The position numbers were made by a program, and so were the translations under genes. A stretch of 64,000 nt of DNA from Candidatus Epulonipiscium sp. (GTDB lineage: Bacteria > Bacillota > Clostridia > Lachnospirales > Defluviitaleaceae): contig JAAYQR010000022.1 of assembly GCA_012519205.1 (NCBI GenBank), positions 1 through 64,000 of the forward strand, written 5' to 3'. The notes under the pieces were generated by a model, which worked only from the letters and a program-made list of their open reading frames with translations, did no database searches and was not told the DNA's origin. This document shows, in pieces, positions 10,438-42,250 of the stretch. How positions within the stretch are numbered: position 1 is the first letter of the stretch; the number at the start of each line of letters is the position of its first letter.

Positions 10438-10854
10438 TTAATCTTTAACTCCTGCTTGAGAACGAATATATTTTTCAATTATTTCTATTGTTGCCCCTCC
10501 AGTTGTTAAAATGCAATAACTTCTACTCCAAAACACTGGTTCCAAGTAGTATTCTTTTAAATATTCACTGTGCTTTTTCCTAATCAACCTTGAAGAAACA
10601 GTTTTCAAAGTATTAACTAATTTTGCTAATTCTACTTGTGGAGGAATTTCAAATAGTAAGTGAACGTTGTCGGGTTCTCCGTTAAATTCAATTATAGTCC
10701 CGTTCTTTCCTTTGATTATATTTTTAAATATTTCGTTTAAATCATCTAATATTTCTTTGTTAATACATTTGTGTCTATATTTAGTTGTTACAACCAAATG
10801 ATATTTTAGATTATATATTGAATGTCTATTGCTTTTAAATTCATTATCTTTCAC
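10438..10854 (-). CDS. tnpA: IS200/IS605 Y1 transposase TnpA (HUH motif altered)
   Basis: 138 residues, the usual size. The family fold is clear: KYHLVVTTKYRHKC at the N-terminus, ELAKLVNTLKTVSSRLIRKK in the middle, FWSRSYCILTTGG, and the C-terminal helix with the candidate catalytic tyrosine (IIEKYIRSQ). The metal-binding HUH motif, normally H-V-H in a DHVHLL context, reads DNVHLL: Asn (AAC) replaces the first His (CAC), a one-base change. That should impair cleavage, so the protein may be inactive even though the frame is open. Confidence 0.85.
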   Translation of the reverse strand: MKDNEFKSNRHSIYNLKYHLVVTTKYRHKCINKEILDDLNEIFKNIIKGKNGTIIEFNGEPDNVHLLFEIPPQVELAKLVNTLKTVSSRLIRKKHSEYLKEYYLEPVFWSRSYCILTTGGATIEIIEKYIRSQAGVKD

Positions 10855-10920
10855 CTTAAAACTCCTTTACAGCTAAGCTAAATTACCATACAATTATAGC
10901 ACAATGGAGGTGTGAAATCT

Positions 10921-11686
10921 ATGAAAATCAATAAAGCTTTTAAGTTTAGAATATATCCTACCAAAGGACAACTAACATTAATTCATAAAACTTTTGGCTG
11001 TGTTAGATTTACATATAATCATTTTCTTAACAAAAGAATTGAATTATACAGGAATGAAAAAAAATCAACTACTTATGTTAATCAAGCTAAGGAATTAACT
11101 TCTTTGAAGAAAGACTTAATTTGTCTTAAAGAAGTCGATAGTGTTTCTCCCTAATCGGCACTTAGAAATTTAGACACTGCTTTTAAAAATTTCTTTCAAA
11201 AGAGAACTAAATATCCTAAATTCAAATCTAAAAAATAATACTAAATCATATACAACTAAAAACACGAACAATTCAATAAGAATTGAAGGAGACATGTTAA
11301 AGTTTCCCAAATTAGGATTATTAAAAACTAAATTTCATAGAGAAATCCCTTCAAATTGTAAAATATTATCTGCTACTATTAGCCAAGTACCTATATGTGC
11401 TTATTTTGTCAACATTACTACGGAATTTGAAAAAGAAGTAGTTCAAGTTCCAAGTAATGACAACATAGTAGGTTTAGATTTTTCAATGAAAGAATTATTT
11501 GTTAGCTCCAAAAACCAAAGAACTAGTTATCCAAGGTTTTTTAGATTATTAGAATCTAAACTTGTAAAAGCACAAAGGAAACTATCAGATAGAGTATATA
11601 CTTGTGAATATGGCAATAAGGTAGAGAGAGATTTAAACGCAAGTATAAATATTAAAAATCAAGGTAACTTGTTGTTAAAATATTAA
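10921..11686 (+). pseudogene. tnpB: TnpB remnant (frameshifted and internally deleted)
   Basis: The first part (10921-11154) has the TnpB N-terminus KAFKFRIYPTKGQ...TFGCVRFTYNHFL, stops, and family sequence (ALRNLDTAFKNFFQKRTKYPKFKSK) continues in another frame. After further stops the frame resumes near 11294 and carries the RuvC-I region (VGLDFSMKELFV). Then KAQRKLSDR jumps straight to CEYGNKVERDLNASINI, the C-terminal RuvC-III end, so the segment with RuvC-II and most of the zinc ribbon is gone. The start ATG at 10921 has GGAGG ten bases upstream. It cannot make a working nuclease. Confidence 0.88.
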
Positions 11687-11875: not shown

Positions 11876-13063
11876 TTATATGTTTGCTGCTTTTTTTAGT
11901 TCTTCTGCCTTGTCCACCTTTTCCCAAGGAAGTTCTAAATCTGTTCTCCCAAAATGTCCGTAGGCTGCTATTTTTGTATAAATCGGTTTTCTAAGATCCA
12001 AATTCTTAATGATTGCTGCTGGCCTTAAATCAAAATGCTTTTTTACCAAATCTGTAATGGCTTCATCGGATATCTTACCAGTGCCATGGGTATTTACTAG
12101 AATGGATATAGGTTCTGCAATCCCTATGGCATAAGCCAGTTCTATTTCACATTTTGTCGCTATGCCGGAAGCCACAATATTCTTAGCTACATAGCGAGCT
12201 GCATAAGCTGCCGAACGATCTACCTTAGTTGGATCCTTACCGGAAAATGCCCCACCACCATGGCTTGCATATCCACCATAGGTATCTACAATAATCTTTC
12301 TTCCCGTAAGACCAGAATCCCCTTGGGGGCCTCCTATTACGAATCTACCTGTAGGATTAATATAATATTTCGTATCTTTATCTAAAAGGTGTTTTGGTAT
12401 TATCGGTTTTATTACATATTCCATTATATCTCTTTTAATGGTGGACTGATCTATTTCCGGCCCATGTTGTGTTGAAATGACGACTGTATCCACCCTAATG
12501 GGCTTATCTTTCTCATATTCTACCGTAACTTGGGATTTGCCATCAGGTCTTAGGTATGGAAGGGTGCCATTTTTACGTACTTCTGATAATTTCATTGATA
12601 ATTTATGAGCTAGGGAAATAGGCATTGGCATAAGTTCCTCGGTCTCGTCACAGGCAAACCCAAACATCATTCCCTGATCCCCTGCCCCTATAGATTCATC
12701 AATTACGGTAGAATCCTCCTGTTTTGCCTCTAAGGATTTATCTACTCCCATAGCAATATCTCCCGATTGCTCGTCTAAGGATGTAAGGACAGCACAGGTA
12801 TCGAAATCAAAACCAAACTTTGCCCTATCATAACCTATTTCTTTGATTTTTTTTCTTACAACCTTAGGGATATCCACATAACAGTTGGTTGTTATTTCCC
12901 CCATCACTAGTACCATCCCCGTTGTCACTGCTGTTTCACATGCCACCCTAGCATAAGGATCTTGGGCTAATATGGCATCTAATACTGCATCTGAAATTTG
13001 ATCGCATATTTTATCCGGATGTCCCTCTGTCACGGATTCCGATGTAAATAGTCTCTTTGACAT
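11876..13063 (-). CDS. metK: S-adenosylmethionine synthetase
   Basis: 395 residues, the normal length. It makes SAM from methionine and ATP in the cytoplasm. Signature motifs are present: [17 protein letters not shown] near the N-terminus, [16 protein letters not shown] near 115-130, and [19 protein letters not shown] near 260. The ATG at 13063 has AAGGAG eight bases upstream; a GTG three codons earlier sits on the ribosome site. It is monocistronic, with its own promoter, SAM riboswitch and terminator. Confidence 0.97.
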
Positions 13064-13143
13064 ATGTATCACTCCTTGTATTATATTTTGATTAAAGAAT
13101 CATTTTTCATTCGTTTAATCGAAGACATGGGAAGTTTATCCCA

Positions 13144-13168: not shown

Positions 13169-13176
13169 TGAACTTC

Positions 13177-13281
13177 CTCATCTTTTAGAATATAAGAATA
13201 TTCTAAGGGAATTAGCACCAGTGCATAATAATGCTGGTTGCTGAGTTTCATCGGGCCCATCCCTCCACCTCTCTTGATAAG
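13177..13281 (-). promoter_or_regulatory. SAM-I (S-box) riboswitch aptamer
   Basis: The minus strand shows the conserved S-box blocks in order: CTTATCAAGAGAGGTGGAGG, GGGCCCGATGAAACTCAGCA, AACCAGC, GGTGCTAATTCC, and a closing GATGAG that pairs with CTTATC to make P1. It controls metK by SAM-dependent termination. This is a well-known class. Confidence 0.95.
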
Positions 13282-13309
13282 AAATTAAGATGAAATTCAT
13301 GATAAACTG

Positions 13310-34950: not shown

Positions 34951-34979
34951 AACTTTTTAATAGAACCTTCCATATATTA
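34951..34979 (+). promoter_or_regulatory. Possible sigma-K promoter before first LSm-like gene
   Basis: AAC, 17 bases, CATATATTA. The -10 fits the sigma-K pattern CATAnnnTA and the -35 fits its short AC element. The next gene has the same arrangement, which supports both. Confidence 0.5.
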
Positions 34980-35014
34980 TAGTAGGACTTTATATAATGA
35001 AAGGAGGTTACTGT

Positions 35015-35383
35015 ATGTCAAAATGTAATATTAGCGGCAGAAACCTTGCAACTCTTTTAGCAGATTATATTGGTGAAACTGTCACTCTTTTTACAGCTAG
35101 CGGCGGTCAGTCCGGTTCTGGTTTCACTGGAGTTGTCCTTTGTGTAAATAACTCTTTTATACGCCTTCTTACTCGTGTTGGTCCTCCCCCTGGATGTGCT
35201 CTTGGAAATGCCTGCACGGGATTTAATCCTGGGTATGGTTATAGTGGTTATGGTGGTAGCTATGGAGGGGGATATGGTGCTATTTCTGCCGGCGGGTGGA
35301 ATGGTTATCCCGTTTATACTGTTGGCTCTGTTACAGATATTCCTATCGATGCTATTGTTTCCTTTGTTCATAATGCCATATAA
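35015..35383 (+). CDS. Small LSm-like Gly/Tyr-rich protein, copy 1
   Basis: 122 residues, family not recognised by name. The core IGETVTLFTASGGQSGSGFT-GVVLCVNNSFIRLL (about 20-55) resembles the strand-turn-strand start of an Sm/LSm or DUF2642-type fold. A Cys pair and a Gly/Tyr-rich stretch follow (about 60-100: GYGYSGYGGSYGGGYG), then VGSVTDIPIDAIVSFVHNAI closes the protein. Spore-coat and exosporium proteins often look like this. No signal peptide. The ATG at 35015 has AAAGGAGG seven bases upstream. A paralogue follows. Spore-surface function is inference. Confidence 0.75.
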   Translation: MSKCNISGRNLATLLADYIGETVTLFTASGGQSGSGFTGVVLCVNNSFIRLLTRVGPPPGCALGNACTGFNPGYGYSGYGGSYGGGYGAISAGGWNGYPVYTVGSVTDIPIDAIVSFVHNAI

Positions 35384-35398
35384 CCCCATAAAATTTAC

Positions 35399-35417
35399 GG
35401 GCGAACAAAGTTCGCCC
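35399..35417 (+). terminator. Hairpin after LSm-like copy 1
   Basis: GGGCGAAC/GTTCGCCC with an AAA loop, then TTAC. The same hairpin (ATT loop) follows the glucan phosphorylase at 52785. It lacks a long T-run, so it may be a processing or repeat element. Confidence 0.5.
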
Positions 35418-35466
35418 TTACATAATAAAATATATTTTAAAGTAATTATACAGCCTTGTAATAAGT

Positions 35467-35494
35467 AACATTTCACTCTAAATGTCATAATATG
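35467..35494 (+). promoter_or_regulatory. Possible sigma-K promoter before second LSm-like gene
   Basis: AAC, 16 bases, CATAATATG, close to the sigma-K pattern AC-N16-CATAnnnTA. Same layout as at 34951. Confidence 0.45.
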
Positions 35495-35539
35495 TAACAG
35501 GATTAGAAATCCTAACACATTATGGAAGGAGGCAATTTT

Positions 35540-35860
35540 ATGCCCTTTGGTTATGGATACGGCTATGGGTATGGATATGGTGGAATACTAGGTCAATTAA
35601 GTCGATTTATAGGCGAAACCGTTACTATTTTTACTACTAGCGGAGGCCAATCAGGCTCTGGATTTACGGGAGTTTTAATAGGGGTAAATCCCTACTTCGT
35701 TACTTTAGTGACAGGCCAAGGTCCTGCCCCTGCTTGTCCCCTAGGAAATGCCTGCGGTGGTTACGGGGGTTACGGAGGATATAGCGGAATATATAATACA
35801 GGTTCTATCACTAACATTCCTGTATATATGATTGCTTCATTTTCACATAACACCCTTTAA
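35540..35860 (+). CDS. Small LSm-like Gly/Tyr-rich protein, copy 2
   Basis: 106 residues, clear paralogue of the gene at 35015. Shared blocks are IGETVTIFTTSGGQSGSGFT, GPAPACPLGNACGG and a closing GSITNIPVYMIASFSHN. The Gly/Tyr repeats differ: here GYGYGYGYGYGG comes first (residues 4-15) and a shorter YGGYGGYSG run lies late. The ATG at 35540 has GGAGG seven bases upstream. The pair is flanked by hairpins and is convergent with GH127, so it forms its own unit. Confidence 0.75.
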   Translation: MPFGYGYGYGYGYGGILGQLSRFIGETVTIFTTSGGQSGSGFTGVLIGVNPYFVTLVTGQGPAPACPLGNACGGYGGYGGYSGIYNTGSITNIPVYMIASFSHNTL

Positions 35861-35868
35861 CGCATAGT

Positions 35869-35900
35869 AAAAAGCCTTGATAAATTCATCAAGGCTTTTT
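35869..35900. terminator. Bidirectional terminator between LSm-like copy 2 and GH127
   Basis: AAAAAGCCTTGAT/ATCAAGGCTTTTT with a 6-base loop and T-runs on both strands, between convergent genes. Confidence 0.85.
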
Positions 35901-40157: not shown

Positions 40158-42250
40158 ATGGCTAAAAAAGAACTGATATTAGAGGGTCTTGATTGTGCGA
40201 ATTGTGCAATAAAAATAGAAACCCAAGTTAAGTCTATTCCCGGAGTTGTGGATGCCTCCGTAGATTTTGTATCCCAAAGACTTACCATGGAAGTAGATAA
40301 TATAAGAGAACTGGATTCTATAGTAAAAAAGGCTTCTTCTATTGCTACCTCTATCGAATCTGGAATTTCCATTCTTGAAAATGATGAAGAGGGAATCGCA
40401 GAGAATGAAAAAGAAAACAAAAGGGAATTGATTATCCTTGGTATTGGAATTTTATTTTTTACTTTAGGATTTATCCTTCCCTTGCCCCCTATTGTAGAAA
40501 ATATTGTATTTTTAGTTAGTTATCTTTTTGTTGGTATTGAAGTACTTATGAAAGCTATCAAAAACATATTCAAGGGGCAAGTTTTTGATGAAAACTTTTT
40601 GATGGCTATCGCAACTATTGGAGCTTTTGCCATCGGGCAATTTCCTGAAGCAGTATCCGTAATGCTTTTTTATCAGATTGGAGAGTTATTCCAAGATATG
40701 GCGGTAAATCGTTCTAGAAAATCAATTAAATCCTTAATGGATATCCGCCCTGATTATGCTAATCTAAAATTAGAAAATACAGTTAAAAAGGTATCTCCTG
40801 AGAAGATTAGTGTTGGGGATTTAATCCTTGTAAAGCCTGGAGAAAGGATTCCCCTTGACGGGATTATTGTAGATGGGGCTTCAACCTTGGATACCTCTGC
40901 CCTAACAGGTGAATCCCTTCCTAGGAAGGTCAAAACAAATGATGAAGTTCTATCAGGTTCCATTAATCAAGAAGGACTCCTTACCATAAAGGTGTCGAAA
41001 CTATTTGGAGAGTCCACTGTATCAAAGATATTGGATTTAGTTCAAAATGCAGGTTCTAAAAAAGCACCGACAGAAAATTTTATCACTAAGTTTGCAAGAT
41101 ATTATACCCCGGCAGTAGTTATTAGTGCAGTACTTTTAGCAGTTATTCCTCCTATTTTTATTCCGGGAGAAAGTTTTTCTATCTGGCTTTATAGGGCCCT
41201 TGTTTTCCTTGTAATTTCTTGTCCTTGCGCCTTGGTTATCTCCATACCCCTTGGTTTCTTTGGCGGCATCGGAGGAGCGTCTAAAAAAGGCATACTAATT
41301 AAAGGAAGCAACTACCTAGAAGCCTTAAATAATGTTCACACCATTGTATTCGATAAAACAGGAACCTTAACTAAAGGAGTCTTTAAGGTAACAAAAATAG
41401 ATTCAAAAGGGAATCTTTCAAAGGAATCCTTGTTAGAATATTCTGCCCTTGCCGAAAGTTATTCAACCCATCCTATAGCAGTTTCTATATTAAATGACTA
41501 TAAAAAAATATAGATAAAAGTAGGATAAGTGAAGTAGAAGAAATTTCAGGGCACGGAATTAGGGCCATGATAGATGGAAAAGAAGTTTTAGCTGGAAACA
41601 AAAAACTAATGGATAAGTATAATATTAAAGTCGATTCTAATGCAACTGGTTCTGTTGTCTATATTGCTATTAATAGAAATTATGAAGGAATGATAATCAT
41701 TTCTGATGAAATAAAAGTAGATTCTATGGGGGCTATAAGAGAACTCAAATCCCTAGGTATAAGTAAAATAGCCATGCTAACTGGTGATAATGATTCTACC
41801 GCTAAAGAAGTTGCAACTAGTCTTGAATTAGATGATTTTTATAGTCAGCTTCTTCCCCATGAAAAAGTTAAAAAACTAGAAATCCTCCACAGACAGCTCC
41901 CTAAAAAACAAAAACTAATATTTGTTGGAGATGGTATAAATGATGCACCGGTATTAGCAAGGGCTGATATAGGAATTGCCATGGGGGGGGGTAGGCTCCG
42001 ATGCTGCTATCGAAGCTTCCGATATTGTTCTTATGACCGATGAACCCTCTAAAATCGCAGATGCCATTAAGATTGCAAAAAAACCCGCCGTATTGTATGG
42101 GAAAACATTTCTTTTGCCCTTGGGGTTAAGGTATTTGTATTAGCCCTTGGAGCTTTAGGTCTTGCAACCATGTGGGCTGCAGTATTTGCTGATGTAGGTG
42201 TTGCCTTGATAGCAGTTTTAAATGCCATGCGGGTAATGAAAAACGAATAA
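40158..42250 (+). pseudogene. cadA: Heavy-metal P1B-type ATPase with three homopolymer frameshifts
   Basis: Encodes a cadmium/zinc/lead efflux ATPase: metal-binding GLDCANCA near residue 10, the SCPCALVIS membrane motif, DKTGT phosphorylation site and GDGINDAPVLARAD hinge. The frame breaks three times, each at a homopolymer: A7 at 41502-41508 (needs A8), G9 at 41983-41991 (needs G8) and A7 at 42077-42083 (needs A8). Corrected, the gene is exactly 698 codons and ends ALIAVLNAMRVMKNE. Either a recent pseudogene, a set of sequencing errors, or slippage; the sequence alone cannot decide. Confidence 0.85.

Follow-up and report, generated by a model that had tools for sequence, protein, structure and literature searches.

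Gly/Tyr-rich paralogues with a predicted Sm-type fold and sigma-K-like promoters as candidate spore-layer proteins of Defluviitaleaceae and other Clostridia

The stretch of DNA analysed here (hereafter, the window) comprises positions 1 to 64,000 of contig JAAYQR010000022.1 from Candidatus Epulonipiscium sp. (assembly GCA_012519205.1) and contains two small neighbouring genes, A and B. Sequence alignment of their products revealed three common blocks: an Sm-like core, one of GPxPxCxLGNxC type, and a strand reading IPxxxIxSFxHN. The initial annotation had proposed the two ORFs and these blocks, and the sequence contains them all. A Gly/Tyr stretch follows the GPxPxCxLGNxC block in A and B alike, and B has a second, N-terminal (GY)n run. 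The features of the locus are as follows.

34952..34978 (+): sigma-K-like promoter of gene A, AC (34952-34953)-N17-CATATATT (34971), from the sequence and the family-wide enrichment of the pattern
35002..35009 (+): ribosome-binding site of gene A, AAAGGAGG, from the sequence
35015-35383 (+): gene A, 122 aa, from the sequence and ORF reading, its start preceded by a strong ribosome-binding site
35399..35417 (+): terminator-like hairpin between A and B, GGGCGAAC-AAA-GTTCGCCC, with a clear T run absent, from the sequence
35468..35493 (+): sigma-K-like promoter of gene B, AC (35468-35469, within GTAAC)-N16-CATAATAT (35486), from the sequence and the family-wide pattern
35499..35513 (+): hairpin near the predicted 5' end of the gene B mRNA, AGGATT-AGA-AATCCT
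35540-35860 (+): gene B, 106 aa, from the sequence and ORF reading, its start preceded by a strong ribosome-binding site
35869..35900 (+): intrinsic terminator after gene B, AAAAAGCCTTGAT-AAATTC-ATCAAGGCTTTTT, from the sequence
Gene A protein: predicted Sm core (residues 11-54), GPPPGCALGNAC block (56-67), Gly/Tyr-rich loop predicted to be disordered (68-100), and predicted strands 4-5, SVTDIPIDAIVSFVHN (105-120)
Gene B protein, in order: N-terminal (GY)n run, predicted Sm core, GPAPACPLGNAC block, short Gly/Tyr loop, and SITNIPVYMIASFSHN end

The two genes are flanked by a TsaC/Sua5-like gene and a GH127-like gene (names from reading), both on the reverse strand. Because A and B each have their own promoter, strong ribosome-binding site, and 3' hairpin, they are neighbours that probably do not form an operon. 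The initial annotation had treated them as a paralogue pair, but they are two of six paralogues in the source genome, separately promoted and with a terminator-like hairpin between them. Elsewhere in the window, reading of the ORF list pointed to an apparently broken IS200/IS605-type element (10438-11686) with a TnpA-like ORF on the reverse strand and a TnpB-like gene in two pieces on the forward strand. A heavy-metal P-type ATPase (40158-42043, from reading), which adjoins an ArsR-type regulator, is broken up into one ORF of 451 aa and another of 158 aa and is therefore probably frameshifted or mis-assembled. The Rfam scan returned a SAM riboswitch only (13175-13283, reverse strand, 87.8 bits), which lies directly upstream of a metK-like gene (11876-13072).

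The six family copies in the source genome (2.13 Mb, 28 contigs) are A, B, three further Gly/Tyr members (C27, C19, and C10), and one minimal copy without the GPxPxC block and the loop. Scanning GTDB genomes (one genome per species) yielded 211 family loci, and tandem members were frequent, with more than one family gene in 28 of 76 loci. Named species among the 80 kept include members of Acetivibrio, Ruminiclostridium, Clostridium, and Defluviitalea as well as Alkalibaculum sporogenes; the closest named relative of the source genome is Defluviitalea phaphyphila. Seven genomes of a single genus, in the same phylum but outside the class, also carry the family, and no homologue was found in phages or plasmids. 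The claim that these proteins belong to no named family held up: neither Pfam nor NCBIfam has a model for the family (scans of A, B, and members), and PHROGs lacks one for A or B. Searching solved structures by sequence gave one chance match (E 0.13), and the profile search gave none. A survey of sporulation genes (PMC3533761) predicted that other Firmicutes have coat proteins yet to be identified, and placed low-complexity candidates in its supplement; we found no description of the family in the literature, nor any expression, proteome, or localisation record of it, and an earlier unnamed listing is possible in Table S3 of that supplement.

Using SpoIVA (TIGR02836) as the sporulation marker, we found spoIVA in all 65 family-positive genomes checked (23/23 relatives, 33/33 class genomes, and 11/11 further phylum genomes, with two genomes shared between the relatives and class sets). 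The class-set match in G189 is broken, and the phylum-set matches in G539, G793, and G802 are weak small-barrel matches. Homologues in non-spore-formers, raised in the initial annotation as a possible objection to a spore role, were looked for and none was found among the 116 genome entries that have no spoIVA match (6 of 40 relatives and 110 of 391 class genomes, with G012 and G034 counted twice as they occur in both sets); G030, in which the marker is only a fragment, also lacks the family. The enrichment of the family with spoIVA (Fisher p=0.003, hypergeometric p=1e-5) ignores phylogeny in both tests, and an honest tally for the class set is therefore of roughly a dozen genera. Only 33 of the 281 spoIVA-positive class genomes have the family; since most marker-positive genomes of the class are without it, these proteins are not a universal coat part. 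The source genome itself contains spoIVA, and its sigK scores above the curated cut-off.

Upstream of each gene, the AC-N16/17-CATA spacing reported in the initial annotation was confirmed (N17 for A, N16 for B), and promoters of relatives (e.g., L017, L022, and L049) resemble that of gene A in upstream comparison. Because the pattern was fixed on A and B only, the remaining family members provide an out-of-sample test. AC-N16/17-CATA was found in 67% of 180 unique family upstreams, compared with 7.9% of 177 other genes from the same loci and 5% of shuffles, although the family sequences are related and these percentages are not independent counts. Spacing peaked at N16-17 (N17 45%, N16 22%, N15 16%, N18 3%), and bases that the pattern did not select were nonetheless conserved, namely GTA 5' of AC, clearest in the N17 sites, and T at the eighth -10 position (CATAnnnT) in 97-99%. 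Sigma-K-like promoters, as claimed, recur across the family. In C. difficile, the two mother-cell sigma factors, sigma-E and sigma-K, share a common -10 element and differ in the -35 element, which is ATA for sigma-E and AC for sigma-K (PMC3789822). The sigma-E -35 (ATA) was sought in the family upstreams and was not enriched, and a sigma-E reading was rejected on this ground; the family has the AC-N16/17-CATAnnnT arrangement of sigma-K regulon promoters. C27, C19, and C10 show a consistent one-base departure from CATA (AC-N16/17-AATA), and no such site was found upstream of the minimal copy in the source genome.

The leaders of family members fold better than shuffles (mean z -1.31 vs 0.03 for the background). 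Hairpins near the predicted mRNA 5' end differ in sequence while pairing is kept (e.g., AGGATTAGAAATCCT, TAGGATTAAAATAATCCTA, and TAGTAGTTCCAAAATGGAATTACTA), and the leader hairpin is perhaps a stabiliser of late sporulation mRNAs.

AlphaFold2, run with 94 family sequences, predicted for the gene A protein a helix (residues 11-16) and five strands (22-27, 37-44, 48-53, 105-110, and 114-119); most of the core is modelled with high confidence, and residues 56-99 have pLDDT <50 (disordered). A helix followed by five strands is the Sm topology, and the prediction contains its N-terminal helix and five-stranded barrel, with strands 1-3 as Sm1, strands 4-5 as Sm2, and loop L4 joining the two halves. 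The GPxPxC block and the Gly/Tyr stretch form in this model an L4 insert of ~44 residues between Sm1 and Sm2, which agrees with the minimal paralogue, where that insert is absent. What the initial annotation had called a Gly/Tyr tail is accordingly modelled as an internal disordered loop between strands 3 and 4. Across the family, this insert (29% Gly, 11% Tyr, 9% Asn) varies in length from 12 to 66 aa, whereas the core and the blocks flanking it are ~80% conserved; Cys61 is kept in 95% and Cys67 in 93% of members, and His119 is nearly invariant.

Foldseek comparison of the model with the PDB agreed with the Sm-like core that had been proposed, in that most of the best matches are small barrels. 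Rank 1 is a small subunit of the Mnx complex and rank 3 is GerQ (E 0.04-0.1, both prob 0.99), followed at later ranks by Sm, LSm, and Hfq chains; rank 2, an unrelated cytochrome, superposed poorly. Two of the top three matches come from spore-borne Bacillus assemblies, a property that was not built into the search. As no match had an E-value below 0.001, these results support the fold and are not proof of descent, and a small barrel fold by itself implies no coat role.

GerQ (YwdL, PF09671) belongs to the spore coat of bacilli; it is an inner-coat protein whose rings of nine subunits stack on one another, a flexible N-terminal region lying outside them (PMC11405398). Besides the small-barrel fold match (prob 0.99), GerQ and the family each have a flexible low-complexity region outside the folded core, although this part is N-terminal in GerQ and the internal L4 loop in the family. 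Profile comparison found no sequence similarity between them (hhalign prob 0.5%), and identity of the family with GerQ by sequence was rejected. The GerQ model matched 6 of 149 phylum genomes and nothing in the source genome.

DUF2642 (PF10842), a group of small uncharacterised Bacillales proteins, shows a weak in-register profile match to strands 1-3 of the family (P=0.0015, prob 17%), but is without the GPxPxC block and the Gly/Tyr loop and has sigma-K-like sites upstream in 9 of 32 cases. Three of 49 family members match the model weakly (best E 0.0027), below its curated cut-off (22.7 bits), and membership was rejected for this reason; A and B gave no match up to E=1, and PF10842 finds nothing in the source genome. 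A match with prob 95.6% was discarded as circular, because the family's own profile had supplied half of its alignment, and independent sequences gave 3-17%. Separately, two spore-formers (G539 and G793) encode small DUF2642-like barrel proteins (L183, 1501-1743; L184, ~1500-1820) with a CATAATAT-type -10 upstream; these may be a further branch of small-barrel spore proteins with a simpler build.

Protein X, of ~120 aa and without a Pfam family, adjoins a family member in the source genome and in 9 of 79 fetched loci. The X clusters (L009:622-1923, at C27 of the source genome, L102, L107, L109, L120, L122, L124, L125, L128, and L129) often contain a second LSm member, with a basic N terminus in several loci, and sigma-K-like sites occur at X in several genomes, including the source genome. 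Its AlphaFold model is confident (pLDDT 86.5) and found no convincing PDB fold match; X shows no profile similarity to the family and was rejected as a relative.

The best-ranked fold match raises an alternative in which the proteins form accessory rings of a spore layer that bind metal or hold an enzyme, as MnxE/MnxF do with MnxG, rather than bulk structure. MnxE3F3 is probably a cyclic hexamer, from Bacillus species whose spores oxidise Mn, MnxE and MnxF bind copper, and a disulfide is reported for MnxE (PMC5622069); earlier work cited there localised MnxG to the exosporium. The conserved Cys pair together with His119 and the presence of X as a conserved neighbour at some loci are in keeping with such a role. 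Identity in the fold alignment is however ~8%, and no partner multicopper oxidase adjoins the family genes in the loci read. The MnxE and MnxF chains have 87-92 residues and so probably lack a loop like that of the family, the hosts are anaerobes, and the number of paralogues that carry low-complexity loops is more in line with a structural role. We consider an accessory ring unlikely.

A sigma-K promoter tells timing and compartment, not location, and would also fit a soluble late protein of the mother cell or forespore (storage, SASP-like, or stress) that stays outside the outer layers. Forespore sigma factors, however, use other promoters, and a coat protein is among the nearest solved folds. 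The combination of a Gly/Tyr-rich composition with a Cys pair is unusual in soluble proteins and typical of coat proteins, and we give the soluble reading little credence.

The predicted Sm topology and the matches to Hfq and LSm chains also suggest a sporulation-specific RNA-binding LSm protein of the mother cell, acting as an Hfq-like regulator or mRNA protector. Unlike Sm, LSm, and Hfq rings, the family has low charge and a long low-complexity L4 insert, and is confined to genomes with sporulation genes. Neither the Sm2 RNA-binding signature (on reading) nor a basic contact surface was found; basic residues are so scarce (four K/R in A, one in B, family median 4.1% K+R) that RNA binding is improbable. 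No Pfam Sm or Hfq model scored above cut-off, the only weak match being one member to SM-ATX (E 0.0098). The presence of as many as six paralogues in one genome, with large Gly/Tyr loops that vary in length, also argues against this role, which we regard as very unlikely. Finally, a vegetative cell-surface or biofilm protein, linked with sporulation genes through shared ancestry only, is highly improbable: family-positive genomes cluster in certain families, so the spoIVA association is partly phylogenetic, but the sigma-K-type promoter is conserved across many genera, no signal peptide was seen on reading, and every positive genome checked has spoIVA (65/65).

A and B are thus probably structural proteins of a coat or exosporium layer that depend on sigma-K and may self-associate through their Gly/Tyr/Asn loop, and the initial interpretation as a whole is partly supported. 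From the computed elements (the family, its restriction to spoIVA genomes, the promoter, and the predicted fold) we infer location in the spore, ring assembly, and cohesion or cross-linking via the loop. The family would be new, of a known kind (spore-layer protein), with a predicted fold that has a precedent in GerQ and a loop that appears distinctive. CdeC, CdeM, and other clostridial exosporium proteins are similar in their supposed role as late, Cys-containing, lineage-specific outer-layer proteins; their architecture differs from that of the family.

According to this structural model, Defluviitaleaceae and many other Clostridia would use A and B to build the outer spore layers, either coat or exosporium. 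Sigma-K RNA polymerase would transcribe the two genes separately and at a late stage in the mother cell. The proteins would each fold into a small Sm-type barrel, and contacts between edge strands would most likely join the barrels into single or stacked rings, much as GerQ of bacilli assembles. The Gly/Tyr/Asn-rich L4 loop, beside the nearly invariant Cys pair, would project from the assembly, where projecting loops could stick units together or allow cross-links (disulfide or Tyr), and several paralogues would give a mixed matrix. The simplest account would be a core that forms rings, with sticky loops projecting from it and fixed by disulfide or Tyr links. A wider scheme, which we put forward as speculative and rather doubtful, is that the outer layer consists of mixed (stacked) rings of Sm-fold paralogues, including the minimal type with a basic N terminus and perhaps X, and that the family, GerQ, MnxE/F, and DUF2642 all branched from a single ancient small-barrel toolkit for spore shells.

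As a candidate, the family is concrete, widespread, and easy to recognise, and it comes with a fold prediction, a promoter, and an assembly model. If the structural reading is right, coat building in Clostridia and in bacilli (GerQ) would use the same kind of small-barrel ring, and Acetivibrio, Ruminiclostridium, and probably Thermoanaerobacter species would be ready targets.
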